52,177 nucleotides of DNA from Klebsiella pneumoniae (GCA_945876945.1 CAMCQE010000013.1:1-52177), one strand, 5' to 3'; counted from the first letter of the stretch, positions 23,282 through 40,907 are shown. The notes: generated from the sequence alone by a model not told the origin. Numbers and translations: made by a program.

Positions 23282-24259
23282 ATGTCGAACGCCTTACCGG
23301 AAGTAGTTTCACCGTCACGTCCGGTGCCCTCGTTAGCAGATGACGTACGCGCGGGTTTGCTCCGCGTGCCGCGTGAATTGCCGCCCAAATATTTTTACGA
23401 CGATCGCGGGTCGGCCTTGTTCGAGGCCATTTGCGAGACCCCTGAGTACTACCCCACACGGGCCGAAAAGGCCCTGATCGCTGCGCACGCGACGGAAGTG
23501 ATTGAAGCCTCGCGACCGCAGTTCATCATTGAACTGGGAAGCGGAGTGGCGTCGAAGATAGGTCCGTTGTTTGCCGCTTGCGAGGCGCTGAACCTTCCCA
23601 CCGTGTACTGCCCGTTTGATGTCTGCGAAGCGGTGCTCATCAAAACGGCGGCCTTGTTGTCTGGCCAATTCAGTGCGCTTGAAGTCAGACCCCTGCAGGG
23701 TGATTTCACTGCCGGGCTCGAGCATCTGCCGCGCCTGCCAGGGCGCACCCTGTACATGTTTCTAGGCGGAACGATTGGCAATTTCACCGACCCGGCAGCC
23801 ATCTCATTGCTCAGTGAGATCCGCGCCATGATGGGCCCGGAGGATTGTTTGCTGCTGGGCGCGGATCGCGTGAAAGATGTGGCGAAACTCAATGCCGCCT
23901 ATAACGACGCTGCGGGTTACACGGCGGCCTTCAATCTCAACGTACTTTCGGTGCTGAACGAGGCTATCGATGCGGATTTCGAACCAGAAAAATTTTCGCA
24001 CCGCGCGTTCTACAACCAGAACGAAGCGCAGATCGAAATGCATCTCGAAAGTCGGGTGGAGCAGTTGGTGACCCTTGGCGACCTTGGGCAGACGCTGCAC
24101 CTCGCCAGCGGCGAGACCATCCGCACCGAGATCAGTCGCAAGTTCTCCTCGCAATCGATTGCGCGCTTGCTGTCGGCGGCCGGTTTCCAAATCGAGCAAC
24201 ACCACAGCGGCCCCGAGGGCGAGTTCTCCTTGTTGCTGGCATCGCCGGCAGATGCCTGA
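23282..24259 (+). CDS. egtD: L-histidine N-alpha-methyltransferase (ergothioneine pathway)
   Basis: SAM-dependent enzyme that trimethylates histidine to hercynine, the first step to ergothioneine. The N-terminus has LPPKYFYDDRGSALFEAICE and PEYYPTRAE, typical of EgtD. The SAM site is FIIELGSGVASK, followed by MFLGGTIGNF and LLLGADRVKD. The end holds AYNDAAGYTAAFNLNVL and a C-terminal SAAGF region. It has 325 residues, normal for the family. EgtB, the sulfoxide synthase usually next to egtD, is absent here. The gene overlaps ampD downstream by eight bases, an unusual partnership. Confidence 0.93.
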   Translation: MSNALPEVVSPSRPVPSLADDVRAGLLRVPRELPPKYFYDDRGSALFEAICETPEYYPTRAEKALIAAHATEVIEASRPQFIIELGSGVASKIGPLFAACEALNLPTVYCPFDVCEAVLIKTAALLSGQFSALEVRPLQGDFTAGLEHLPRLPGRTLYMFLGGTIGNFTDPAAISLLSEIRAMMGPEDCLLLGADRVKDVAKLNAAYNDAAGYTAAFNLNVLSVLNEAIDADFEPEKFSHRAFYNQNEAQIEMHLESRVEQLVTLGDLGQTLHLASGETIRTEISRKFSSQSIARLLSAAGFQIEQHHSGPEGEFSLLLASPADA

Positions 24260-26925: not shown

Positions 26926-27750
26926 ATGTTGCACGAAAACCTTCTGAAGTTCGCCAGCTTTCGCTACCTCAAAGTCGCGACATTGCTGGTGCTGGGAAGC
27001 ATAGGGGCCTACCTCTGGCATACGCCCCGCACGATACCTAACGGTGGCACCTGGCTGGGCTACACCTTGGGGACGATCGGCGCGGCCCTCATCCTCTGGC
27101 TGATGTTTTTCGGCCTTCGCAAACGCGCTTACCGCTCCAGGCTTGGTACCGTCAAAGGCTGGTTGTCGGCGCATGTTTATCTCGGGCTATCGCTCATCGT
27201 GGTGGCCACGCTCCATACCGGATTCCAGTTTGGCTGGAACATCCACACGCTGGCTTACGCGTTGATGCTGGGGGTAATTTTCAGCGGGATGTGGGGCGTG
27301 TATGTCTACTTCAGAAATCCGGTGTTGATGAGCGGGATGCTGGACGGGAAGACCGTTCAGCAACTGGGTGGTTCGCTCCGCGAGATCGACGCCCAGTCGC
27401 GCAAAATCGCCAGCAACCTCAGCCCCGACTTGCAGGCCCTCGTGCAGCGATCGTCTGAGGCGGCGATTGTCGGTAGCCTTTTCGGTCGGTTCCGTTCCCA
27501 GATCATCGGTTGTCCGACGCGCAGAGCGGTCGACGTTCTCCAGCAACGGGTTAAGGCGGAAGGCGCGAGCAAGCCACTACGCGATCTGCTCAACCTGCAG
27601 TTCCGGCGCCTGTCTCAACTGGATGAGATCAGGGCGTTTGTGAAGCTGAAAACCTGGACCGATTTGTGGCTGCTGTTTCATGTGCCACTGTCTTTCGCGT
27701 TGCTGGCGACCCTGACGGCGCACATCGTCTCGGTCTTTTTCTACTGGTAG
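26926..27750 (+). CDS. Membrane protein with two HX13H pairs, predicted diheme cytochrome b
   Basis: A 274-residue integral membrane protein with about five hydrophobic segments (residues 16-32, 43-63, 79-97, 106-127, 247-271). Two of them carry histidines 14 residues apart: His83/His97 and His252/His266. Two HX13H helices are the arrangement that holds two stacked b-hemes in bc1-type and ferric-reductase-type proteins, so a diheme b function is inferred. Between segments four and five lies a soluble loop of about 115 residues (130-245), which is unusual. As first gene of the operon it could oxidise or reduce the quinone pool and pass electrons to the anchored decaheme protein encoded six bases downstream. 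No family name is recognised. Confidence 0.8.
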   Translation: MLHENLLKFASFRYLKVATLLVLGSIGAYLWHTPRTIPNGGTWLGYTLGTIGAALILWLMFFGLRKRAYRSRLGTVKGWLSAHVYLGLSLIVVATLHTGFQFGWNIHTLAYALMLGVIFSGMWGVYVYFRNPVLMSGMLDGKTVQQLGGSLREIDAQSRKIASNLSPDLQALVQRSSEAAIVGSLFGRFRSQIIGCPTRRAVDVLQQRVKAEGASKPLRDLLNLQFRRLSQLDEIRAFVKLKTWTDLWLLFHVPLSFALLATLTAHIVSVFFYW

Positions 27751-27756
27751 TCGCCC

Positions 27757-29349
27757 ATGCAGCATAAAGAAGACGACCCGATAACCGCCCAGATTAAAAA
27801 TCTGCAGCGCCCCTTGGGCGGGCGTCGACTGCTGTCCTGGGGCTTGTTTGTCATCGCGGCGGTAGTCGCTCTGCTGCTACCGGTTGCAAGCTCCGAGCAT
27901 GCCGATGAACTGAAGGTCTGGCTGCACAAGGTGCCAGGCCTCGCCGAACACGTGCTACCGCTGATGGCGAGCGTGGAGCAAGCATTCCTCGCGCGTAGAC
28001 CGGACCCTGCGGTTAAAGCCCCCGCTGAACGCAAATCTCACCACGACATTCACGCCCCGCTGGTTGCCGGGGCCTATGTCTCCCCGCCGCCAACTTTGCT
28101 CGGTTTGGACCGGGTCTGGAATCCCGGCCCGCTGGCCCAAGCGCATCAGCCGTGGGCAAACGATTGCAAAGTCTGTCACAGCGTGCCGTTCAAACAGGTG
28201 ATGGATAAAGACTGCCGAACCTGCCACGCGACGATCGGCGACCACGTTGACGCCAAGTCCGGCGAGGTTCATGGCCTGAGTGACCGGAGCTGCACGAGCT
28301 GTCATCAGGACCATCAAGGCGAGTTTGGTCTTGCCACACAAAACCTGCATTTTGTTGGTCGCGATTGCGCCGAGTGTCATCGCGACATCAAGCGCGCGAT
28401 GCCCGCCACGCACACCGAAAACGTTGCCGACTTTGCGATCCAGCATCCCCAATTCCGCGTGCAGCTTGCCGGGCCGCCGCCTGCGTCGGCGCTAACGCGG
28501 GTTCGTCTGGCGCCGGGCAAGGCGCTGGAGGAGCCGACGGGGCTCAAATTCCCGCACGACGTCCATCTCAGCGCGAAAGGTATCGACAGCCCCAAAGGCA
28601 CGGTGCGGATGGAATGCGCTAACTGCCATGTGCTGCAGCCGGACGGCCTGCGCTTCGTGCCAACCAACATGAAAGACCACTGCCAAAGCTGCCACGCGCT
28701 GAAGCTCGAGCCCCAGATGTCTAACCGCGAAGTGCCGCACGGCCCGGTGCCAGAAGTGCTCACCGCCTTGCGCGAGTTTTATGCCTATGTGGCGCAACAG
28801 GGCGGATTACCGGCGAGTGCCGAGCCCCTTACCCGCACCATCCAAATCACCCGACCTGGCGAACCGAAGGCGGAGCCGCGCAGCTTCATTGACCTGCCCG
28901 GTGGCGTGCGTGAACGCGCGGCAGCGGCCGCGACCGAGTTGTTCGAAAAAACCTCTTGCGTGGTATGTCATGAGGTAAGCCGCGAAGCGGGCGCCGGACT
29001 GGCCGGAACGCCCGGATCCGATCTGCCGCAGTGGAAGATTGCGCCGGTGCAGTCCATCCATGAGTGGATGCCTAAATCAGTATTCAACCATACGGCTCAC
29101 GCGAACGAAGCGTGCACGGACTGCCATCAGGCCGAGCACTCCAAAAAGGCCGCCGAGGTGCTGATGCCGCGCATCGAGGTCTGCCGTGATTGCCACGCAG
29201 GAACCGCCCCGTCGGCCAACAAAATTACCTCAGATTGCGGGCTTTGCCACGGCTTCCACCAGCCCGCGCGCTTGCCTGTCACCGCGCAACTCACGCGCCC
29301 GGCGTTGTTACCGTCAGCACACTCGCCAGGTGGGGCCCCGGCGCGATGA
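27757..29349 (+). CDS. Membrane-anchored decaheme cytochrome c
   Basis: A 530-residue protein with a basic N-terminus, one uncleaved-looking membrane segment (about residues 26-44) and ten CXXCH heme sites at about 137, 153, 179, 204, 287, 309, 401, 453, 476 and 494. Many additional His residues (for example FPHDVH, FNHTAHAN) can serve as distal ligands, as in cytochrome c3/c7-type folds. It would stand in the periplasm, tied to the inner membrane. This is the place occupied by CymA or NapC in other systems, although it is larger than those and has more hemes. Its stop overlaps the next start by four bases (ATGA). Confidence 0.92.
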   Translation: MQHKEDDPITAQIKNLQRPLGGRRLLSWGLFVIAAVVALLLPVASSEHADELKVWLHKVPGLAEHVLPLMASVEQAFLARRPDPAVKAPAERKSHHDIHAPLVAGAYVSPPPTLLGLDRVWNPGPLAQAHQPWANDCKVCHSVPFKQVMDKDCRTCHATIGDHVDAKSGEVHGLSDRSCTSCHQDHQGEFGLATQNLHFVGRDCAECHRDIKRAMPATHTENVADFAIQHPQFRVQLAGPPPASALTRVRLAPGKALEEPTGLKFPHDVHLSAKGIDSPKGTVRMECANCHVLQPDGLRFVPTNMKDHCQSCHALKLEPQMSNREVPHGPVPEVLTALREFYAYVAQQGGLPASAEPLTRTIQITRPGEPKAEPRSFIDLPGGVRERAAAAATELFEKTSCVVCHEVSREAGAGLAGTPGSDLPQWKIAPVQSIHEWMPKSVFNHTAHANEACTDCHQAEHSKKAAEVLMPRIEVCRDCHAGTAPSANKITSDCGLCHGFHQPARLPVTAQLTRPALLPSAHSPGGAPAR

Positions 29350-31187
29350 TTGGGCCGCCGCTCCGCTGGCGGTCGCTCTGCGCGCTAGCGTTCGCCCTGA
29401 CGCTGGTCACTGCCTCAGCGCAAGGGGCCAGCCTGTCCCTCGCCGAGGTTAATCGCGTCGCGGGGCAGGCCGAACAAGCGGCAGAGTCGCTAGGCCAGAC
29501 TCGCTTCACCATTGCCGTCGTCGATCGCGTCGGCAATGTGCTGGCAGTATTTCGGCGCGGCGCCGCCAGCGCACTGACCATTACTTCAGGCCTGCCCGTC
29601 ACCGGCGGTCTGGAGGGCATTAGTTCAACGGCCACGGGGCTAGATCTGGCGGCCGTTGCGGCGATTTCCAAGGCCGTGACCGGCGCATATCTCTCCTCCT
29701 CGGGTAATGCGTTCAGTACCCGCACTGCGAGCTTCATCATCCAGAATCACTTTGCGCCGGGCGTGAAAAACACGCCGGGTGGCCCGCTCTACGGCGTACA
29801 GTTCAGCCAGTTGCCCTGCGGTGACTTTGTGCAGACGAACGATCCCGGCGCTACCACGGGCATTGGCCCGCGTCGTTCGCCATTGGGTCTGGCCGGCGAC
29901 CCGGGTGGCTTTCCTTTGTACAAGGCCGGCGTGGTAGTGGGCGGCGTAGGCGTTATCGCGGGCGCCACAGCGACCTATACGCTTGATCTGGACCCGCGCC
30001 GTCCCAAAGCCGACCTTGAAGAGCGGATTGCGCAGGCCGCGACGACCGGATTTGCGCCTCCGGATGCCCTGCGCCAAATCACCGCCGGCGGCATTCGCCT
30101 GCCATATTCCACTTCAGACGCTAGCGTGCCCGCCGTCACCCGAAGAGTGCCGGTACATGCCACGCCACAGACCATTGCGGGCTACACCATCAACGTCGTC
30201 AAAGCGGGTCGAGCCTTTGGCAGAGAGGGATCAGGCTATGTCCCGGCAACTCGCGCCAACGCGACGCCCGCACTGGTCGCCCGCCATGCGTTCATCCTTG
30301 AGGATGGCGCGGGGCGCAATCGCTTTCAGCCCAAAAGCAGCGTCGTGCCATCAGCGCTCAGCGCGACGTTCGTGAATGAAATTCTCCAGCAGGCTTTAGG
30401 CGTGGCGAATCAGGCCCGAGCGCAAATTCGCCGGCCACTCAATTCCGCCGCGCAGGTGACGGTGGCGGTGGTGGATGTGGCCGGCAACATCCTCGGCGTG
30501 GCCAGAACCCCGGATGCACCCGTCTTCAGTACGGACGTCTCCGTGCAGAAAGCGCGCACCGCAGCCTTGTTCTCGCGGCGTGATGCGAGCGCCAAAATCC
30601 GGGCGATAGCCCCCGACAGCATTGCGGGGATTAGCATTCCGGGCGGTGCGCGCCGCATGAACGCGACGCAGCGTTTTTTTGGCCGGGACGTCTTTACCGG
30701 CACGGCCTTCACGGCGCGCGGACTCAACAATTTGGCCCGCCCGAATTTCCCGGACGGCATTGATGCCAACGGTCCCGGACCGCTGGCGAACGGCGCGAAC
30801 TGGAGTCCGTTCAATGTCGGGTTACAACTCGACGCGGTCGAAAAAAACGTGCTCACCGCGCTGGTGTTACCGCAGGCGCAACTCGGCTCCTGCACAGTCA
30901 AGCCGCTCGGCGCCAACAACGGGATTCAGCCGTTCGCCGGCGCCTCTCCTATTTACGCCGGGTCGACGCTGGTGGGCGCCGTCGGGGTGTCCGGCGATGG
31001 CATCGATCAGGACGATATGGTGGGCTTCCTGGGGCTGCAAAGGGCGAGCAGCGGGGCCGTCATCAAGGGCGCTGTGGGGCATGCACCCAAGGCGATCCGG
31101 TCGGACCGTCTTGGTCTGCGCTATGTGCAATGTCCGCAATCGCCGTTTATTAACAGCGATGCGCAAAACGTCTGCGCCGGATTCTGA
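29346..31187 (+). CDS. Exported double GlcG/HbpS-domain protein
   Basis: A 613-residue protein with a signal peptide (MIGPPLRWRSLCALAFALTL, cleaved near AQG-AS). Two GlcG/HbpS (DUF336) domains are seen: the first begins LSLAEVNRVAGQAEQAAE and FTIAVVDRVGNVLAVFR, and the second QVTVAVVDVAGNILGVAR, ending PIYAGSTLVGAVGVSGDGID. HbpS of Streptomyces binds heme and iron. Heme handling or a structural role beside the cytochromes is inferred. The start at 29346 is fixed by the ATGA overlap with the decaheme gene; the apparent extension to 29190 is out-of-frame sequence of that gene. No CXXCH is present. Confidence 0.85.
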   Translation: MIGPPLRWRSLCALAFALTLVTASAQGASLSLAEVNRVAGQAEQAAESLGQTRFTIAVVDRVGNVLAVFRRGAASALTITSGLPVTGGLEGISSTATGLDLAAVAAISKAVTGAYLSSSGNAFSTRTASFIIQNHFAPGVKNTPGGPLYGVQFSQLPCGDFVQTNDPGATTGIGPRRSPLGLAGDPGGFPLYKAGVVVGGVGVIAGATATYTLDLDPRRPKADLEERIAQAATTGFAPPDALRQITAGGIRLPYSTSDASVPAVTRRVPVHATPQTIAGYTINVVKAGRAFGREGSGYVPATRANATPALVARHAFILEDGAGRNRFQPKSSVVPSALSATFVNEILQQALGVANQARAQIRRPLNSAAQVTVAVVDVAGNILGVARTPDAPVFSTDVSVQKARTAALFSRRDASAKIRAIAPDSIAGISIPGGARRMNATQRFFGRDVFTGTAFTARGLNNLARPNFPDGIDANGPGPLANGANWSPFNVGLQLDAVEKNVLTALVLPQAQLGSCTVKPLGANNGIQPFAGASPIYAGSTLVGAVGVSGDGIDQDDMVGFLGLQRASSGAVIKGAVGHAPKAIRSDRLGLRYVQCPQSPFINSDAQNVCAGF

Positions 31188-31190
31188 CGC

Positions 31191-33257
31191 ATGCGCCTAC
31201 GCCGCCACGTGAGCCACGCAACCCGGGCCTTGATGTTCCTGGCGAGCCTCGGCCCCTATGCCAGCGCAAGCGCTGTGGAAACGTCGGCCGCAGCCCGCGT
31301 CATGCAGGTTATGGCGGTGCGGACCGAACTGCGCACAGCGCCAAATCCTAAAGCCCCGGCCGTGGCGATTGTCGGGCGCGGCAACTTGCTGGAAGTGATC
31401 GAGTCGCAGGGGCACTGGTATCGGGTGCGTTACGGCACGCGACCGGCCGACACCGCATGGGTCGAGCGAAAACCCGATCGCTACAGCCAGTACAGCCTTG
31501 AATTTATTCGCGTGCCCGGCGCTACGCCCCGGTTCGCCGAAGATCAGACGGGTGTGAAGCCCGATGCCCCGGTAGAGCCGATGCGGCCCGGCGCAACGAA
31601 CCCAAGGCCGGTGGTGACCCTCCCGCCCATCGACCCCCGGCAGGTGCCGGGGCCGGCCGTGAATCTACCCCGGGAATCCTTACCGTTGCCCGACCGTTGG
31701 CGCTTGATGCACGCGCTCGACTTCAAGTTTCCCTGGTACGACCCCTACAACCAGAATGTCTTTAAGGGTGATATTCCCATCACTCGCCTCGGGCCCGACG
31801 TTTTCCTCAACGTCATCGCCATTTCTGACACGCTTTTTGAGGCGCGCTCGGTGCCGACGCCGGTGTCCCAGACGACTTCCTTTCCGGACGCCAACAACAT
31901 CTACGGCGGCAACCAGCAAGAGCTATTTTCGACCACCATTCTTGCCGGGTTCTCTCTGATCCAGGGGAACACCACATTCAAGCCGCCGGATTACGAATTC
32001 CGCGCCCTCGCGGCCATTAATTACAACCGGGCGAATGTTGAAGAGTCCGGCGCCTTGCTGATCGACCCTTCGCAGGGCCGTACCCGCGAAGATCACTTCG
32101 CGGGCTTGCAGGAACTCTTTATCGACAAGCATCTGCGCAATGTGTCCGATCGCTACGACTTCGACTCTTTGCGCGTCGGGATTCAGCCCTTCACGTCTGA
32201 CTTCCGCGGGTTTCTGTATATCGATCAGCCCCTGGGCATTCGTATCTTCGGCGACCGCGATAACAATCGCTACCAATACAACCTCGCCTGGTTCCGTCGG
32301 CTGGAGAAAAACACCAACTCCGGGCTCAACGATATGTTCCGCGAGCCTCGTGAGGACGATATTTTCGTCGCCAACCTCTATGTGCAGGATTACCCGGTTA
32401 AGGGATTTACCTCGCAGGTCAGCGTCACGCACAACCGCAACGACGAGTCGTCTGACCACTACGACAACAACGGCTTCCTCGTGCGGCCAGCGCTGGTGGG
32501 CGATGCTCAGGCCCACGATTATCAGGTGACCTACTTCGGTTACAGCGGCGACGGCAACTTGTTCTGGTTCTGGCCGAAAGCCCGACTGAATCTCACGACC
32601 TCCACCTATCTCGCCGTGGGTAGTGATTCGCATAGTCCCATTGCGGGTCGGGAACAAAGCATTCTGGCCGGCTTCCATGCGAGCGAGCTTTCGCGCGACT
32701 TCGACTGGATTCGCGTGCGCGGCAACTTGTTGTTTGCGACTGGTGACGGTGACCCCTACGACGGCGAGGCCAACGGCTTCGACGCCATTCTCGAAAATCC
32801 GCAGTTTGCGGGCGCTGATACCGCGTATTTCATCCGTCAGGGCATTCCCCTGATCGGTGGCGGCGGGGTGGCGATTTCGGGTCGCAACGGCATTCTGCCT
32901 TCGCTGCGTTCGTCTAAAGACCAGGGTCAGTCCAACTTCGTGAATCCCGGCCTGCAGCTCTATGGCATGGGCGCTGACATCGACGTGCTGCCCGGATTGC
33001 GCCTGACAACCAATGTGTCTTATTTGCGGTTTATGGACACGAGTTCACTGGGCGCGCTGCGCCTGCAGCGTGAGCCTGATGGCGAACTCGGGACTGATTT
33101 CGCTGTTGGCGTTGAATTCCGCCCGTACTACAACCAGAACCTGGTGCTTAACGCTTCTGCCAGTGTGCTCCATCTCGGTCAAGGCATGATCCAGATGTAC
33201 GGTAACGAGCAGGAAAATCTCTACTCGACCTTCGTCAACGCGATTGTGGCCTTCTGA
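31191..33257 (+). CDS. SH3-domain outer-membrane beta-barrel protein
   Basis: A 688-residue exported protein (signal peptide ending near ASASA). Residues about 36-87 resemble a bacterial SH3 domain (VRTELRTAPNPKAPAVAIVG, then LLEVIESQGHWYRVRYG, with WVERK). A Pro-rich linker follows. From about residue 180 to the end there are alternating, aromatic-rich strands separated by Asp/Asn-rich turns, and the chain ends in Phe (NAIVAF), as outer-membrane barrels do. By position it is the likely sleeve for an electron conduit, like MtrB or PioB, but it lacks the N-terminal CXXC of MtrB and has the SH3 domain instead. The next start overlaps its stop by one base. Confidence 0.82.
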   Translation: MRLRRHVSHATRALMFLASLGPYASASAVETSAAARVMQVMAVRTELRTAPNPKAPAVAIVGRGNLLEVIESQGHWYRVRYGTRPADTAWVERKPDRYSQYSLEFIRVPGATPRFAEDQTGVKPDAPVEPMRPGATNPRPVVTLPPIDPRQVPGPAVNLPRESLPLPDRWRLMHALDFKFPWYDPYNQNVFKGDIPITRLGPDVFLNVIAISDTLFEARSVPTPVSQTTSFPDANNIYGGNQQELFSTTILAGFSLIQGNTTFKPPDYEFRALAAINYNRANVEESGALLIDPSQGRTREDHFAGLQELFIDKHLRNVSDRYDFDSLRVGIQPFTSDFRGFLYIDQPLGIRIFGDRDNNRYQYNLAWFRRLEKNTNSGLNDMFREPREDDIFVANLYVQDYPVKGFTSQVSVTHNRNDESSDHYDNNGFLVRPALVGDAQAHDYQVTYFGYSGDGNLFWFWPKARLNLTTSTYLAVGSDSHSPIAGREQSILAGFHASELSRDFDWIRVRGNLLFATGDGDPYDGEANGFDAILENPQFAGADTAYFIRQGIPLIGGGGVAISGRNGILPSLRSSKDQGQSNFVNPGLQLYGMGADIDVLPGLRLTTNVSYLRFMDTSSLGALRLQREPDGELGTDFAVGVEFRPYYNQNLVLNASASVLHLGQGMIQMYGNEQENLYSTFVNAIVAF

Positions 33258-36200
33258 TGACTGAGCATTTACTCGCGCGATTCTGGTCCCTCCTGCTCGC
33301 AAGCTGTCTGGTGCTGAGCGGCGGCTTGTTGTCTTTCTCCGTTAGCGCCAGCGACAAACCCGAACTGGTGCAGCGCGACTATGTCATGGCGCCGGCAGCG
33401 CCAAAGTCGCAAACCCAGGCGCAAGCGGATACCAAGTCGGTCGGCTGCGTCAGCTGCCATGAGCGCACTGACCGACACACCATGCACGCCAATCCCGGGG
33501 TGGTGATCGGGTGCGCGGATTGCCATGGGGGTGACGCCAAGGTCATGCGCGCTGCCGGCTCTGCCAAAGGCGACGAGCCTTACCGAAAGGCGATGGACGC
33601 CGCGCATGTGCTGCCGCGCGACGAACATTTCTGGCGGCCTCAAGCCTCCGCCAATCCGCCCGACTCCTATGCGCGGCTAAACAAGGAACATCCTGCGTAC
33701 GTCCGGTTTATCAACCCGGGCGATCTACGCATCGCGCGTGAAGCCTGTGGAGAATGTCATCTGCCGATTATTCAGGCGCAGGAACGCAGCCTCATGAGCA
33801 CTTCCGCGATGCTGTGGGGCGGCGCCGCGTACAACAACAATATCCTGCCGTTCAAGCGCTATATCCTCGGTGAGGCCTATACGCAGGACGGACTGGCCGC
33901 GGGGCTGCTCAACCCGGTGAAAGTGGACGATGCCCTGTTCGTCCAGAAAGGGGTGCTGGAAAAGCTCTATCCGCTGCCCGCCTGGGAAACCATTCCGCCG
34001 GGCGACATCTTTCGGGTGTTCGAACGTGGTGGCCGCGTGATCAGCAGCCAATTCCCTGAGATTGGACTGCCCAACAGCACCGGGGCGTTGCAGAAACTTG
34101 ACGAACCCGGTCGCCCCGACCTCAAGCAATCCAATCGCGGGCCCGGCACCGGTAGCAGAATTTCCGTGCCTATCATCAACCTGACCAAGTCGCGACTGAA
34201 CGACCCGCATCTGTGGTTTCTGGGCACCAACGACAACCCCGGCGACTATCGCTCGTCCGGCTGCAGCGCGTGCCATGTGGTGTATGCGAACGACCGCGAT
34301 GAAAAACATTCCGGGCCGTATGCGCAGTTCGGAAACCGCGGCAAATCGCAGACCAGCGACCCTACGATTTCGCGCGAGGAATCTGGTCATCCGCTAAAAC
34401 ATGAATTCACGCGTGCGATTCCGTCTTCCCAGTGCATGGTCTGTCACATGCACCAACCGAATATCTACGTGAATTCCTTCTACGGTTTCATTCAGACCGA
34501 CTACGAGGCCGATGCCGAAGCGCTTTGGCCCAAGGAAGAGAAACACCCGACCGCGGCCGAAATCCGTGAGATTAACCAGCGCAATCCGGAAGAAGCGGTG
34601 ATTCGCGGTAAATGGTCAGATCCGGAATATCTGGCCGAAATCTCCAAGCTTAACCCCACCCTGAAAGACACCCAGTTCGCGGACTATCACGGTCACGGCT
34701 GGGTGTTTCGCGGTGTCTTCAAGCGCGACCGCAAGGGTGCGCTACTGGATGCCAAAGGACAGGTGGTGCCAGACACCGATCCCAAAAAGTTCGACAAAGC
34801 GGTGCATATGGGCTCGATCCATATGGACAAGGGCATGCACTGTGTTGACTGCCACTTCGAGCAGGACATGCACGGCAATGGTCATATTTACGGGGAAGTG
34901 GCGGCGGCCATCGAAATTGACTGTGCTGACTGCCATGGCACGTCCAAGGCCTATCCCACCCTGCACACCTCCGGGCCAGCCGCGTCACCCGGTGGTCGCG
35001 ACCTGTCGCTGATGAAAACGCAAGACGGACGCCAGCGCTTTGAATGGCGAGACGGCGACCTGTACCAACGTTCATCCCTCCATCCTGACAAGGAATGGAA
35101 GGTCTCCCTGGTGAAGGATTCGGTCAATCGCAATCACCCGGACTACAACGAAAAGGCTGCGCGATCGAAGTTGATGGCGGCAGGCGAGGCAGGGCGGCAA
35201 GGCAAATGGGGTCCGGGCGTCGCCGCACTCGCACACGACAACGAGAAAATGATGTGCTTCACCTGCCATCTGTCGTGGACCACGAGTTGCGCAGGTTGCC
35301 ATCTGCCCATCCAGGCCAACTGGAAAACCGAACGCCTTCACTACGAGGGCGGCGAGACTCGCAACTATGCGACCTACAACGTGCAGGTGGCGCGCGACGA
35401 CGTCTTCCAGTTAGGCCGGCATGGTCCGGTGAAAGACGGACGCATTGCGCCCATCCGTTCCAGTTCAGCGCTGGTGCTGTCCTCGCAGAATATTAACCGC
35501 GAGCGGATCTACATCCAGCAGCCGCCGATCGCAGCCAGCGGTTACTCCAGTCAGGCGTTCGCGCCGCATTACCCGCATACCGAGCGCAAGGAAGAAACGA
35601 AAACCTGCGAGGACTGCCACGTTTCCAGTCGCAACGACAACAACGCGATCATGGCGCAGCTGCTCCTGCAGGGGACGAACTTCGTCAACTTCATTGGCGG
35701 TTATTCAATGATCGGCGAGGCGGGTCATATCGAAGGGATTGCTGTCACCGAACTCGATGAGCCGCAGGCCGTCATCGGCAGCTATCTGCAGCGCTTCGCA
35801 TACCCGGACCGCTTCAAGGCACACGAGGCTCGTGGCAAGGAACTCGTGGAGGCGCACGCACACACCACCGCAGGCCCCGCCCGCTGCGTGCAACTGCGCG
35901 GCGAGTATTTCTTCGTGGCCGAAGGGAAGGGCGGCTTCCGGGTGTATGACACCGCGGCGCTGCCCAACAAGGGCTTCTCCGAACGCATCATTACCGCGCC
36001 GTATTCGCCCCTTGGCCACGACGCCCACGTGCCGAGTGCGAACGCCACCTGCATGGCCTTGCCAACCAACCAACCGATAGCACCGGCGCGTAACGAGGGC
36101 CCGTTGATGCGCGAGGTTAATCAGGAACAGCCCGCGCACCCGATCTACCACTACGCGTTCATTGCGGACGCCGAGGAAGGTTTGATCGTGGTGAACGTCG

Positions 36201-37033
36201 ACACCTTCTCGGACGGTGAGGCGCGTAATAACTTCCTCAAGCGAGCCGCCACCTGGAATGAAGGCGGGGTGCTCACGGGGGCGAGTCATATCGTGGTGGG
36301 CGGTCACCGCGCGTTCATTACCACGGCCTCGGGGGTGCACATCGTCGAACTTGACGACCCGCTCAAGCCCAGGCTCATTGCCAGCGTTCCCCTGCCGGGC
36401 GCTCGCGCCAGCGCCTTGCAGTTCCGCTATCTCTACGTTACCGCCGAGGATGGCCTACACGTGGTCGACGTTACCGAAATCACGCAGCCCAAACTGCTAC
36501 CGGCCAGAATTGCGCTCGCTGATGCGCGTCGGGTGTATCTGGCGCGGACCTATGCCTACGTCGCTGCGGGCAAAGACGGCCTGGTGATCGTCGACATCGA
36601 GAAGGCTGATGCGCCTAAGGAATACCAGCGCTTCAACGCCGGCGGCGCGATCTCGGACGCGAACGACGTGGTGGTGGGTTCCACCAACGCCTCGCTCTTC
36701 GCGTACATCGCCGATGGGGCAAACGGGCTCAAAGTCGTGCAATTGACCGCGCCCGATAGCCAGCCAAGGTTCTACGGATTCTCACCTGAGCCGAAACCCC
36801 AACTCATTGCCTGGCACAAAACGCGCACCCCTGCGCTGGCGCTGTCGAAGGGCTTGGATCGCGACCGTGCCGTCGACGAAACTGGCGGACAGATCGCGGT
36901 GTTCGGCCGCATTGGGTCGCGCCCGTTTACCGCCGAAGAAATGGCCAAGATGTACCGCAATCCGGATGGGTCGGTCTGGACGGTGAGCAATCAGGGTAAG
37001 CCCGCTGACTACGAGGCGAAGCCCGAAAAATGA
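33257..37033 (+). CDS. Decaheme cytochrome c fused to an LVIVD-type beta-propeller
   Basis: A 1258-residue exported protein. Ten CXXCH sites lie at about 64, 86, 164, 336, 393, 529, 556, 667, 678 and 784. After residue 870 there are repeated blade-like units: YFFVAEGKGGFRVYD, YAFIADAEEGLIVVNVD, RAFITTASGVHIVELDDPLK, YLYVTAEDGLHVVDVTEI, YAYVAAGKDGLVIVDIEKA and FAYIADGANGLKVVQL. These match the LVIVD repeat, a surface-protein propeller. The N-terminus fits either ordinary signal cleavage (VSA-SD) or a lipobox LAS-Cys17, so surface lipidation like OmcA/MtrC is possible. A REP-like segment may encode part of the C-terminus (36829-36853). It overlaps both neighbours. Confidence 0.92.
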   Translation: MTEHLLARFWSLLLASCLVLSGGLLSFSVSASDKPELVQRDYVMAPAAPKSQTQAQADTKSVGCVSCHERTDRHTMHANPGVVIGCADCHGGDAKVMRAAGSAKGDEPYRKAMDAAHVLPRDEHFWRPQASANPPDSYARLNKEHPAYVRFINPGDLRIAREACGECHLPIIQAQERSLMSTSAMLWGGAAYNNNILPFKRYILGEAYTQDGLAAGLLNPVKVDDALFVQKGVLEKLYPLPAWETIPPGDIFRVFERGGRVISSQFPEIGLPNSTGALQKLDEPGRPDLKQSNRGPGTGSRISVPIINLTKSRLNDPHLWFLGTNDNPGDYRSSGCSACHVVYANDRDEKHSGPYAQFGNRGKSQTSDPTISREESGHPLKHEFTRAIPSSQCMVCHMHQPNIYVNSFYGFIQTDYEADAEALWPKEEKHPTAAEIREINQRNPEEAVIRGKWSDPEYLAEISKLNPTLKDTQFADYHGHGWVFRGVFKRDRKGALLDAKGQVVPDTDPKKFDKAVHMGSIHMDKGMHCVDCHFEQDMHGNGHIYGEVAAAIEIDCADCHGTSKAYPTLHTSGPAASPGGRDLSLMKTQDGRQRFEWRDGDLYQRSSLHPDKEWKVSLVKDSVNRNHPDYNEKAARSKLMAAGEAGRQGKWGPGVAALAHDNEKMMCFTCHLSWTTSCAGCHLPIQANWKTERLHYEGGETRNYATYNVQVARDDVFQLGRHGPVKDGRIAPIRSSSALVLSSQNINRERIYIQQPPIAASGYSSQAFAPHYPHTERKEETKTCEDCHVSSRNDNNAIMAQLLLQGTNFVNFIGGYSMIGEAGHIEGIAVTELDEPQAVIGSYLQRFAYPDRFKAHEARGKELVEAHAHTTAGPARCVQLRGEYFFVAEGKGGFRVYDTAALPNKGFSERIITAPYSPLGHDAHVPSANATCMALPTNQPIAPARNEGPLMREVNQEQPAHPIYHYAFIADAEEGLIVVNVDTFSDGEARNNFLKRAATWNEGGVLTGASHIVVGGHRAFITTASGVHIVELDDPLKPRLIASVPLPGARASALQFRYLYVTAEDGLHVVDVTEITQPKLLPARIALADARRVYLARTYAYVAAGKDGLVIVDIEKADAPKEYQRFNAGGAISDANDVVVGSTNASLFAYIADGANGLKVVQLTAPDSQPRFYGFSPEPKPQLIAWHKTRTPALALSKGLDRDRAVDETGGQIAVFGRIGSRPFTAEEMAKMYRNPDGSVWTVSNQGKPADYEAKPEK

Positions 37034-37057
37034 ACGCGTTTAGCCGCCTGCGCTGCC

Positions 37058-37062
37058 GAGGA
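37058..37062 (+). promoter_or_regulatory. Shine-Dalgarno favouring an internal start of the pentaheme gene
   Basis: GAGGA stands six bases before ATG 37069. The upstream ATG at 37030 overlaps the previous stop (ATGA) but gives a 14-residue longer, arginine-rich leader. The site favours 37069. Confidence 0.5.
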
Positions 37063-37068
37063 AGAGTC

Positions 37069-38445
37069 ATGATGCGAATGCTGGTGTCGCGTAGCGCAAG
37101 GCTCGCGCGCGACTGCCTACTGAGCCTGTCAGGCCTGTTGGCCGCTTTGCCCATGGCGGCGAGTGCGGGAGATCCGGTCTTACCCTTGCTCTCTCCCCAC
37201 CAGACGATTGGCACCGTGAACTGCGCGAGTTCCACCTGCCACGGGTCAATCACGCCGTGGGAGGGCGGCAATGTCCTGCAGAATGAATACACCACCTGGT
37301 CGCGCCTTGATCGCCATACGCGCAGCTACGAAGTCCTGAAGAACGCGGTATCTCAGCGCATTGTGCGCAATCTCGGCTACAAAGAGCCGGCCACCGAGGT
37401 GAAGATTTGTCTCGATTGCCACGCGCACAATCCGCTGCCGGCGCTGCGGGGCGATCGCTTTACGCAAAGCGAAGGTATTGGCTGCGAGGGCTGCCACGGG
37501 CCCGCTGCCGACTGGGTTGGCGAGCACGCGGTGAAGGGCACTCCGCACAGCGCGAACATCGAACGTGGGCTGTATCCCACGGACCAGCCCATTGCCCAGG
37601 CCAAGCTATGCCTCTCCTGTCACTTCGGGGATGAGTCGCGCTTCGTGACCCATCGCATCATGGGCGCCGGTCACCCGCGTATCTCCTTTGAGCTCAAAAC
37701 GTTCTCGGCGCTGGAACCCGCCCACTATCGGATTGATGCAGACTATGAGCAGCGCAAAGGTAGCTACGACAGCGTTCGCCTGTGGGCGATTGGTCAGGCG
37801 CTCGCCGCGCGTCAGCAACTCGATACGCTTGCCGATCCCAAGCGTGGCCGCGATGGTCTGATGCCCGAACTCGTCTTGTTTGATTGCTATTCCTGCCATC
37901 ATCCGATGAGCGACAAGCGGTGGACGCCTCGCCTCGGCGTCGGTCCCGGTCGGATACGCCTCAACGATAGCAACCTGCTGATGCTGAGAGCGATCGTGCG
38001 TGCCACCTATCCTGAATCCTCGGCTGCCTTCGACAAGGCCGTTCGCGCCACCCATCTCGCCGTTTCGACCGGCCAGACGGAGGGCGGGGCGGCGCCACTG
38101 CAGGTCGTGAGCAAGCTGTCCGCCACCATCGGTGCCTACCTGCCACGGCTGGAGCAGCAGGCATTTCCCCCGGCGCTACAGCGCAAGGTACTGGTGGCGC
38201 TGATCGACGAGTCGGCCGAAACCAGCTACGCCGATTACGCCGGTGCGGAGCAGGCCTATATGGCCATCGTGACGGTGAGCAACGATTTGCTCAGCCACGG
38301 TGCCCTTAAATCGACGCCCGCGCTCACCGATGCGCTGGCGCGGCTACTGAAGGCATTGCGTCACGACGAGCAGTACGACGCGAATGTTTTCAGGAAGCAG
38401 TTATCCACGCTCCGCAGCACGATCGGCGTGCAAGAGAGGTCCTGA
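37069..38445 (+). CDS. Five-heme cytochrome c, c554-like
   Basis: A 458-residue periplasmic cytochrome (471 if translation begins at the ATG 37030 that overlaps the previous gene). In the 471-residue numbering the heme sites are CASSTCH at 65-71, which is CX4CH, and CXXCH at 127, 152, 194 and 286. The run NCASSTCHG, NEYTTWSRLDRH and CLDCHAHN recalls the cytochrome c554/multiheme family known from hydroxylamine-oxidising bacteria. The second half (about 300-471) has no heme and looks helical. It could shuttle electrons between the anchored decaheme and the barrel complex. Function is inferred from position only. Confidence 0.88.
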   Translation: MMRMLVSRSARLARDCLLSLSGLLAALPMAASAGDPVLPLLSPHQTIGTVNCASSTCHGSITPWEGGNVLQNEYTTWSRLDRHTRSYEVLKNAVSQRIVRNLGYKEPATEVKICLDCHAHNPLPALRGDRFTQSEGIGCEGCHGPAADWVGEHAVKGTPHSANIERGLYPTDQPIAQAKLCLSCHFGDESRFVTHRIMGAGHPRISFELKTFSALEPAHYRIDADYEQRKGSYDSVRLWAIGQALAARQQLDTLADPKRGRDGLMPELVLFDCYSCHHPMSDKRWTPRLGVGPGRIRLNDSNLLMLRAIVRATYPESSAAFDKAVRATHLAVSTGQTEGGAAPLQVVSKLSATIGAYLPRLEQQAFPPALQRKVLVALIDESAETSYADYAGAEQAYMAIVTVSNDLLSHGALKSTPALTDALARLLKALRHDEQYDANVFRKQLSTLRSTIGVQERS

Positions 38446-40907
38446 TGCCTGCTGCCAGTAATCCCGCCATGTACAACGCCGCCGCCGAGGCCGACTACGA
38501 CATCGTTATCGTCGGGTCCGGCCCTGCCGGGCTGTCTGCTGCTTCCCGTGCCCAACATCACGGCAACACCCATGTGCTGCTGGAAGCGGCCGCGCATGCG
38601 TCCGACACCATCTACAACTACCAAAAAGGGAAGTTCGTGATGGCGGAGCCGGGCAACATTCCGCTGCGTAGCGGGATGACTTTTGGCGAGGGCCGCAGGG
38701 AAGGCATTTTGGGCACCTGGGACGATGAACTTGCCGCCCAAGGCGTGAACATTGCCTACAACAAGAAGGTTGATGGCATCCAGCGCGATGTCACCACCGG
38801 TGTGTTCAGCGTCAAGTGCGAGGATGGCACCGGCTACACCGCGCGCAGCGTCATTCTCGCGATTGGGCTGCAGGGCAATGTGCGTAAGCTCGGCGTGCCG
38901 GGTGAAAACCTTTCTCGCGTGCAGTACACGCTGTCTGATCCGGACGAATACCACGATGAAGTCATCGTCGTGGTGGGGCCTGGTGATGCTGGCATCGAAA
39001 ATGCCGTCGCGCTGGCCGACCACAACACGGTGTACATGATTAATCGCGGTGACGAATTCACCACCTGCAAAGATGGCAATCGGGCGCTCATTCTGGCCAC
39101 CGAAAAAGCGGGCCAAATCACCATCTGTTATTCCGCGAGTGCAGTCCGCGTGGAGGAAACCGGTGAGGAACCACCGCTGCATTTTGTCTTCAACGCCAAA
39201 GACGGTGAGAAGAGCATCCCCTGCCATCGCGTGATCGGTCGGATCGGCGCTATTCCGCCTCGTAAGTTGGTGGAGAGCTTCGGCGTGGTGTTTCCCAATC
39301 CTTCGCCGGCCGCGTTGCCCGAACTGACCGAGCAGTATCAATCCAACGTCCCCGGCCTGTTTATTGTCGGCGCGTTGGGCGGCTATCCGCTGATCAAGCA
39401 GGCCATGAACCAGGGTTACGAGGTGGTCGATACCTTGAATGGCCTGGTGGTCGAGCCGGTCGATGAACCGCTGTTACGAGAGCGTCTGCGGGTGTGGCGC
39501 CCGCAATCGGAAGTCTCTCCGCTGATTGACCGCTTGATGCGCGACGTGCCGCTGTTCAGTGTCATGACGCGTCTGCAGGTCCGCGAATTCCTGCTGGAAT
39601 CGCAACTGCGCGCAGTGCCGGCCAATGAGCCAATCTTTGAAAAGAACGAATACACGAACACCTTCTTCACGCTGATCAACGGCTCCGCTTTCATCGAACT
39701 GGGCGGCGATGGGGCTAAAACCCGCAAAATCCCGCTGGCGAACGGCCAGTTTTTTGGCGAAATGGGCCTGATTGCCGGACGTCGCCGAACGGCCACGGTA
39801 CTCGGCGGTGATTCCTGCGTCGTCATCGAGACGCCGCGCCGGATGATGCTCAAGCTGATGAGTTCTTCAGACGATGTGCGGCGTTTGATCGACGAAGCTT
39901 TCGTGCGCAACGCGTTGATGTCTTACATGCACACGTCCGCACAGGGCGCCGCTGAACTCGTTGCTGATGGCATTGAACTCCGCCAGTACAAGGCGCGCGA
40001 AGTGTTGTTTTCGGAAGGCGACAAGGCGGACGGCCTCTACCTGCTCCGGCGCGGTTCGGTGACGCTGTCGCGCCGGGTGGAGGGCATTGATGCGTTCGTC
40101 GCCTATGTGCCCGCAGGCGACTACTTTGGCGAAATCGCCTTGCTCGATTCAGCCCCGCGCGGCGCTACTGCCACCGCCAACGTGATGTCCGAAGTGTTGG
40201 TGTTGAAGCGTGAGGCGGTAAATACGCGGCTGGCTGCGGGCACCCAGTTCGCGGGCTTCATGCGCCAGACCATGATGACGCGACAGGAAGAAAACATTCT
40301 GTCCGAGGTCAAGGGCATCACCCCGCGCCATCAGGTGGAGCCGCTGATTCAGCAGGGGCTGGGCGAAGCAACCAACGTCTTGATTATCGACGAGTCGCTG
40401 TGTGTTCAATGTAACAACTGCGAAACGGCGTGCGCTGAGACTCACGGCGGGGTGTCGCGCATGAAACGCGAGGCCGGTGCCACCTTCGCGCAGATTCATA
40501 TTCCCATTGCCTGCCGCCATTGCGAGCATCCGCACTGCATGAAGGACTGCCCGCCCAACGCCTTGTCGCGCGGGCCGGGCGGCGAAGTATTTATTGCCGA
40601 TACCTGCATTGGCTGTGGCAACTGCGAGCGCAATTGCCCTTACGGCGTTATCGACATGGTGCCGGAGAAGAAGCCGAAATCCGGCGCGGGCCTGCTCTGG
40701 ATGCTGTTCGGGATTGGCAAGGCGCCGGGACAGCGGGCGCCCGATTACGACCCGGATGCCAAGAAAAAAGCAGTCAAGTGCGACCTCTGCCAGAGTCTTA
40801 AAGGGGGGCCGGCCTGCGTGCGCTCTTGCCCCACCGGGGCTGCGATTCGTATCTCGCCGGAAAGCCTGTTCGAGAAACTGTCGCCGCACGCGAGCCAGCG
40901 CGACTAA
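38445..40907 (+). CDS. FAD/NAD(P) reductase, two cNMP-binding domains and four-cluster ferredoxin in one chain
   Basis: An 820-residue cytosolic fusion. Residues 18-340 are a thioredoxin-reductase-like flavin domain with dinucleotide motifs GSGPAG (24-29) and GPGDAG (178-183) and a C-terminal FIVGALGGYP FAD site. The redox CXXC of thioredoxin reductase is missing. Residues about 370-480 and 505-600 are Crp-type cyclic-nucleotide domains with phosphate-binding cassettes GEMGLIAGRRRTA and GEIALLDSAPRGAT. Residues 650-800 hold four [4Fe-4S] sites: Cys653/656/659/663, 690/693/698/702, 721/724/727/731 and 779/782/791/795, a HycB/DmsB-like set. It lacks signal and membrane segments. It could pass electrons between NAD(P)H and a partner under cNMP control. 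The start overlaps the upstream stop by one base. Confidence 0.92.
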   Translation: MPAASNPAMYNAAAEADYDIVIVGSGPAGLSAASRAQHHGNTHVLLEAAAHASDTIYNYQKGKFVMAEPGNIPLRSGMTFGEGRREGILGTWDDELAAQGVNIAYNKKVDGIQRDVTTGVFSVKCEDGTGYTARSVILAIGLQGNVRKLGVPGENLSRVQYTLSDPDEYHDEVIVVVGPGDAGIENAVALADHNTVYMINRGDEFTTCKDGNRALILATEKAGQITICYSASAVRVEETGEEPPLHFVFNAKDGEKSIPCHRVIGRIGAIPPRKLVESFGVVFPNPSPAALPELTEQYQSNVPGLFIVGALGGYPLIKQAMNQGYEVVDTLNGLVVEPVDEPLLRERLRVWRPQSEVSPLIDRLMRDVPLFSVMTRLQVREFLLESQLRAVPANEPIFEKNEYTNTFFTLINGSAFIELGGDGAKTRKIPLANGQFFGEMGLIAGRRRTATVLGGDSCVVIETPRRMMLKLMSSSDDVRRLIDEAFVRNALMSYMHTSAQGAAELVADGIELRQYKAREVLFSEGDKADGLYLLRRGSVTLSRRVEGIDAFVAYVPAGDYFGEIALLDSAPRGATATANVMSEVLVLKREAVNTRLAAGTQFAGFMRQTMMTRQEENILSEVKGITPRHQVEPLIQQGLGEATNVLIIDESLCVQCNNCETACAETHGGVSRMKREAGATFAQIHIPIACRHCEHPHCMKDCPPNALSRGPGGEVFIADTCIGCGNCERNCPYGVIDMVPEKKPKSGAGLLWMLFGIGKAPGQRAPDYDPDAKKKAVKCDLCQSLKGGPACVRSCPTGAAIRISPESLFEKLSPHASQRD

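Follow-up and report, generated by a model that had tools for sequence, protein, structure and literature searches.

The window considered here is the whole analysed stretch of 52,177 nucleotides from Klebsiella pneumoniae (GCA_945876945.1, CAMCQE010000013.1:1-52177), and its subject is a cluster of seven cytochrome-system genes at 26926-40907. The cluster is real and conserved as a system, the literature searched contains no account of it, and its inner half is related to PCC4, a putative porin-cytochrome cluster (He et al. 2017, PMC5566968). The seven genes are listed below under short working names (cNMP, cyclic nucleotide monophosphate; FAD, flavin adenine dinucleotide).

26926-27750, + strand: b, integral membrane diheme b-type cytochrome of the PCC3/PCC4 "IMP" type
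27757-29349, + strand: dec, inner-membrane-anchored periplasmic decaheme cytochrome with 10 CXXCH
29346-31187, + strand: glcg, exported protein carrying two domains of HbpS/GlcG type plus four conserved cysteines
31191-33257, + strand: omp, N-terminal SH3, linker and predicted outer-membrane beta-barrel of about 18 strands, with C-terminal F
33257-37033, + strand: big, secreted decaheme (residues about 48-860) followed by an LVIVD beta-propeller (about 861-1240)
37030-38445, + strand: penta, periplasmic cytochrome c554-like protein with four CXXCH and one CX4CH
38445-40907, + strand: red, cytosolic FAD/NAD(P) oxidoreductase with two cNMP-binding domains and a four-[4Fe-4S] ferredoxin domain

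These same-strand open reading frames (ORFs) are packed with gaps of at most 6 nt (6 nt at b/dec, 3 nt at glcg/omp) and several start/stop overlaps (4-nt ATGA overlaps at dec/glcg and big/penta, 1-nt TGATG overlaps at omp/big and penta/red), hence they are regarded as one operon-like unit. The start of glcg was set at ATG 29346 and TTG 29190 was not used; signal peptides and topology of the cluster proteins were judged by eye. A preliminary description of the window had announced seven coupled genes with these components, and they are real, with ligands conserved across relatives.

The b protein has five hydrophobic segments and two HX13H pairs (H83/H97 and H252/H266). The pairs belong to WX3HX13H motifs on the third and fifth transmembrane segments (W79, H83, H97 on TM3; W248, H252, H266 on TM5), and SGXXG is found on TM4 (S120, G121, G124). 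In an alignment of 52 sequences H83, H97, H107, H252 and H266 are conserved at 100%. Pfam gives a weak cytochrome b561 match, and the search of the b profile against solved structures returned no useful match. The dec protein carries its 10 CXXCH in 530 aa. The majority of dec homologues add a cytosolic N-terminal FHA-like region ahead of the membrane anchor (recognised by Pfam in L025, the single homologue scanned, and by eye in the remaining ones), and because the FHA domain precedes the hydrophobic segment in homologues, this segment is taken as an anchor and not as a cleaved signal peptide. A PP2C phosphatase, FHA proteins or a CHASE2-cyclase are encoded near the cluster in some loci. At L025:3621-5705 a sulphate permease/STAS protein with an N-terminal FHA domain adjoins the cluster.

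Pfam domains of the cytosolic protein red are Pyr_redox, two cNMP_binding and Fer4, with a further match to PF13247 (E 3.5e-7). In an alignment of 61 sequences all 16 of the 16 Fe-S cysteines are conserved at 100%. The closest solved flavoproteins to its flavin domain are YpdA-type, and the fold is that of YpdA/TrxR; CXXC is present in 0 of the 61 flavin domains, so the identity of red as a thioredoxin reductase was rejected. The cNMP domains match the regulatory domains of cAMP/cGMP-dependent kinases. In two genomes red and b are fused into one gene for a protein of about 1120 aa (L149:7250-10606 and L150:3052-6423), therefore the two probably exchange electrons directly. An FHA-decaheme gene follows both fusions, and none of big, omp and glcg occurs within the stretch read. 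A third locus (L148) has the same inner-membrane core of red, b and FHA-decaheme in unfused form; as in the two fusion loci, big, omp and glcg were not detected in the stretch read, which ends soon after the decaheme in L148.

At the outer membrane, the SH3 domain of omp scores slightly below the curated Pfam cut-off. The predicted structure shows this domain followed by about 18 strands (pLDDT 81.5), and the SH3 domain, standing at the N-terminus, is expected on the periplasmic side. The best fold match of omp is AlgE (Z 27.8, 365 residues aligned, root mean square deviation (rmsd) 3.1), and OprD-family channels follow at Z about 25. MtrB is not among the matches listed in this fold search, by which a relation to MtrB is not disproved. 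Sequence searches of omp and big against solved structures found nothing useful.

In big (1258 aa) 10 CXXCH are joined to a Pfam LVIVD propeller, and ten of ten CXXCH are invariant in an alignment of 52 sequences. The propeller fold is clear (Z 30.0 to 1l0q, 274 residues aligned, rmsd 2.1). The model, built without haem, has a mean pLDDT of 71 with its haem half of moderate confidence, and Foldseek and VIA-align returned propeller matches only, these searches having barely probed the haem half. Across 16 loci big is the best-conserved protein of the cluster, with a median pairwise identity of 0.67 (omp 0.53, glcg 0.52, red 0.52, penta 0.45, b 0.42, dec 0.35), which would suit an enzyme or a precise docking partner more than a generic surface wire. 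In glcg, where Pfam finds the HbpS-like domain twice, the conserved cysteines are C158, C516, C596 and C610, and some relatives have a lipoprotein-like N-terminus. The penta protein matches cytochrome c554 in Pfam, and its five haem motifs, including the CX4CH (C65..C70-H71), are all conserved at 100% in 52 aligned sequences.

The IMP of PCC3 and PCC4 was defined by five transmembrane segments with WX3HX13H on TM3 and TM5 and SGXXG on TM4 (PMC5566968), and the b of this cluster has all of these features. A b profile search covering 398 genomes found four clusters (L151, L152, L155 and L157) fitting PCC4 subgroup II, an assignment made by gene content and not by comparison with the published PCC4 sequences. 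They contain a porin (not identified in L157), an NAD(P)H-type flavin reductase, a tetraheme, a cNMP/Fe-S protein, an IMP, a decaheme and sometimes a pentaheme; the Pfam domain scan was made for L155 only. When profiles were compared with hhalign, probabilities reached 99.3% for b (257 columns), 99.5% for dec, 99.4% for penta against the tetraheme, and 100% over 444 columns for the cNMP-Fe-S part of red. They were 0.1% for omp against three PCC4-like porins, 0.1% for red against the flavin reductase, and at most 28.6% for big, for which there is no clear counterpart. Judged from these profiles, the inner half (b, dec, penta and the cNMP/Fe-S part) is thus homologous to PCC4-like clusters, whereas the outer half is different, as is the flavin input.

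As in PCC4, a decaheme, a small multihaem protein and a porin are gathered in a single cluster together with an Fe-S protein bearing pfam13247, which in PCC4 is the neighbour of the IMP and here is part of red and fused to the flavoprotein. The haem counts are 10/10/5 here in contrast to 4/5/10 in PCC4, and the omp barrel, the HbpS/GlcG protein and the decaheme-propeller are without PCC4-like counterpart. The flavin domain also differs, being a fused YpdA-like Pyr_redox here and NqrF-like (FAD_binding_6/NAD_binding_1/Fer2) in the PCC4-like clusters. The two flavin reductases are non-homologous and hold the same place in the cluster, which suggests that the same input has been supplied twice.

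A profile search of GTDB r220 contigs gave at least 585 relatives of big; the best 80 of them come nearly all from Alpha-, Beta- and Gammaproteobacteria, and in a tree of 77 big sequences the grouping mostly follows these classes. Among 397 other Pseudomonadota genomes sampled, big was present in 10 (about 3% of the sampled species), and b was present in 10 of these 10 carriers. The question whether the seven genes stay together can be answered directly from 38 fully flanked loci, where omp accompanies big in all 38 and glcg does so in 37; each of b, dec and red lies nearby in 35 loci and penta in 28. Common gene orders are b-dec-glcg-omp-big-penta-red and red-b-dec-glcg-omp-big(-penta). The red-b-dec part travels as one block among loci; red, the last gene of the window's operon, adjoins b in many relatives. 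In G450, a genome from the phylum sample, the red-b-dec and penta-glcg-omp-big modules lie on separate contigs. Within the genus of the window, three genomes (G001, G004 and G008) carry the cluster next to one set of neighbours, namely SnoaL-like, glutaredoxin-like and trigger-factor genes, and two others (G003 and G007) keep these neighbours with 0 of the 7 cluster genes in the stretch read. Within the genus the block is present or absent as a unit at a single site.

The best-supported reading, to which we give about even confidence, is that of a PCC4-related trans-envelope system exporting NAD(P)H electrons under cNMP control. We infer the direction of flow, the use of NADPH, the order of carriers and the side of the outer membrane where big works as follows. 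NADPH (or NADH) would reduce the FAD of red, from which electrons would pass through the four [4Fe-4S] clusters of red to the two haems of b, which would take them through the inner membrane to dec. penta would shuttle them through the periplasm to the outer-membrane-associated big, which would be held by the SH3-barrel omp, assisted by the HbpS/GlcG protein, and would hand them over to a specific acceptor, either at the outer membrane or farther out. This flow may be switched on and off by the cNMP sensors of red, joined in most relatives by the FHA domain of dec, a control that would be required because a drain of NADPH would also discharge the membrane potential. It speaks for export that a cytosolic flavin and four [4Fe-4S] clusters accompany a diheme b whose haems are predicted to be stacked across the membrane and whose ligands are invariant. 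The red-b fusions, the NAD(P)H flavin reductase of the PCC4-like clusters, the linkage of the genes, the oxidase and RuBisCO counts of the carriers and the strong conservation of big count for it too. The outward path from NAD(P)H over flavin and Fe-S to the b haems would be downhill in redox potential and would run along the membrane potential, and inward flow to NAD(P)+ would demand a very low-potential donor. Outward flow would conserve no energy, hence a gated assimilatory, defensive or redox-balancing role would fit better than a respiratory chain.

Several points weigh against export. Its direction cannot be told from sequence, and b could exchange electrons with quinone rather than with red; PCC4 was itself drawn as electron uptake into the quinone pool and proposed for Fe(II) oxidation (PMC5566968). 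The dec of the window has a short N-terminal tail only, without FHA domain. In 10 of the 38 loci penta is absent within reach, so another protein may take over the periplasmic relay, or its gene may lie elsewhere. The chief doubt on an outer-membrane conduit comes from the modelled width of omp. The MtrB sheath is a 26-strand barrel; that of omp appears narrower, a decaheme may not fit through its lumen, and passage by this way is a putative step. Every layer that a conduit needs had been claimed for the cluster in the preliminary description: the components are real, but the outer-membrane step was overstated, the barrel being modelled with about 18 strands and as AlgE/OprD-like.

This barrel is also the ground for a doubtful but serious alternative, a periplasmic or inner-face reductase with its own porin, where the relay would stop at big inside the outer membrane, electrons would stay in the cell and omp would be a substrate channel or an anchor. 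The AlgE and OprD matches, the enzyme-like conservation of big, the expected periplasmic position of the SH3 domain and the lack of a profile relation between omp and PCC4-like porins are all consistent with it. However, the constant linkage of omp with big suits a porin-cytochrome complex equally, no catalytic motif is recognised in big, no substrate is known, and a surface location of big remains compatible. It is unlikely that the system works inwards, with big oxidising an extracellular donor (Fe(II), Mn(II), a sulphide mineral or a cathode) and electrons flowing to the quinone pool or NAD(P)+. The Fe(II) oxidation proposed for the PCC4-like relatives of the inner half points to such uptake (PMC5566968), as does one locus (L074) from a biocathode Haliea metagenome-assembled genome (MAG). 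Among 87 genomes of iron-oxidising Gallionellaceae, 27 are reported to have a 10-haem "Forkhead-associated protein" with no system assigned (PMC10734462), which may belong to the same family as the FHA-bearing dec. Yet the named carriers include heterotrophs such as Steroidobacter, Sphingobium, Duganella, Haliea and Limnobacter, a high-potential donor would be unable to reduce NAD(P)+ via red, and inward flow would oppose the membrane potential. Bona fide RuBisCO was found in just 1 of the 19 carriers tested (G044, E 1.5e-139), which argues against lithoautotrophic electron uptake as a general role. In the genus of the window and in two further genomes (G027 and G033) the RuBisCO-family matches are weak (E 1e-11 to 1e-19) and were taken as RuBisCO-like; the match in the window's own genome (G000:C9:37739-38413, E 1.4e-19) is probably a RuBisCO-like protein.

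With still less confidence one can think of a two-membrane bacterial NADPH oxidase, in which a cNMP-gated current from cytosolic NADPH would pass over the diheme b and the multihaem cytochromes and supply a surface decaheme-propeller reducing extracellular O2 (to superoxide or peroxide) or metals in aerobic heterotrophs. By analogy, NOX/FRE enzymes likewise feed two stacked b haems on HX13H helices from cytosolic NADPH-FAD, but no ferric-reductase domain is matched here, and c-type haems would carry the electrons on toward a second membrane. Least probable is dissimilatory respiration of metals or minerals at low oxygen, quinol-fed through b and Mtr-like in function. A multihaem chain reaching the outer membrane would serve it, and a diheme b of this kind could be quinol-active (PMC5566968); on the other hand, no Mtr-family member was found at curated scores, and a cytosolic red with cNMP sensors would be superfluous. 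A haem-copper oxidase subunit I was found in 19 of the 19 carriers tested, which can thus respire oxygen, though a second mode stays compatible. With these oxidase and RuBisCO counts, the two roles suggested in the preliminary description, metal or mineral reduction and uptake of electrons from a donor, suit the carriers poorly, be it as metal respiration or as electron uptake for growth.

The preliminary description knew of no described Mtr, Pio, Mto, Ombc-Omac or Ext system with this combination. The combination with SH3 barrel, HbpS/GlcG protein and reductase fusion indeed matches none of Mtr, Pio, Mto, Ext, PCC3 and Uet, but the cluster is not unrelated to described systems, since its IMP-type b, dec, penta and the cNMP/Fe-S part of red have homologues in clusters that match PCC4 (PMC5566968). 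Likeness to MtrCAB, MtoAB and PioAB is limited to the general plan of a barrel with decahemes. No cluster protein reaches a curated score for the DmsE/MtrA, MtrB/PioB or OmcA/MtrC families: for the DmsE family (TIGR03508) dec obtains 29.1 bits against a cut-off of 192.2 and big has no match, and omp, with about 18 strands in its model, does not match the MtrB/PioB family at E 0.1, while the fold search leaves a distant relation possible. Clusters from a Methylobacter bioanode and from Ferrovaceae were set aside as MtrAB-type. Around its haem motifs big is locally similar to ExtM (63.2 bits) and ExtO (23.1 bits) of Geobacter, far under the cut-offs of 800 and 200 bits, and we know of no LVIVD, cNMP or HbpS counterpart in the Ext systems. 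PCC3 shares the IMP motif, a porin and multihaem cytochromes; it is very haem-rich with a low residue-to-haem ratio (median haems per protein 34 and 21, PMC5566968), unlike big and dec (10 haems in 1258 aa and in 530 aa), and no cNMP/flavin/Fe-S protein or HbpS is described for it. At L153:9194-11891 an IMP-like gene is followed by that of a 24-haem cytochrome, which is PCC3-like. The Uet system of Tenderiales has a porin, multihaem cytochromes (undecaheme UetJ, tetraheme UetA, trihemes UetDEG) and NHL beta-propeller proteins (UetHI) (PMC10734462). These NHL proteins are separate, whereas here propeller and decaheme form one protein, and haem counts and gene content set the two systems apart. 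In open-licence literature on LVIVD, HbpS/GlcG or FHA with multihaem cytochromes this cluster was not found described.

Cytochrome systems that span the envelope are discussed mainly in connection with metal-cycling bacteria, and this one occurs also in ordinary aerobic heterotrophs, which suggests that export of electrons from the NAD(P)H pool under cyclic-nucleotide gating is a common trait that has escaped study. PCC4-type inner relays are seen combined with varied flavin inputs and varied outer-membrane ends. Cultured carriers such as Parahaliea, Steroidobacter and Limnobacter open the system to direct testing.

Clustering of flanking genes across loci yielded no eighth core gene. Downstream of the cluster the window continues with housekeeping-like ORFs (trigger factor, clpP-like and clpX-like), and an EgtD-type histidine methyltransferase-like ORF is found at 23282-24259, all of these translations being judged by eye. 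Three loci (L055, L056 and L067) come from MAGs entitled Bordetella parapertussis or Candidatus Marinimicrobia; these labels look doubtful, and the big sequences cluster with Betaproteobacteria and Alphaproteobacteria MAGs. Plasmid-borne copies of big occur in 12 records of Sphingobium and in one of Sphingopyxis. On the Sphingobium herbicidovorans plasmid pMSHV (L112, 1509-9662) a ShlB/FhaC-type protein and a 6.3 kb hypothetical ORF form a two-partner-secretion-like pair, which together with a CHASE2 gene lies directly upstream of the cluster.

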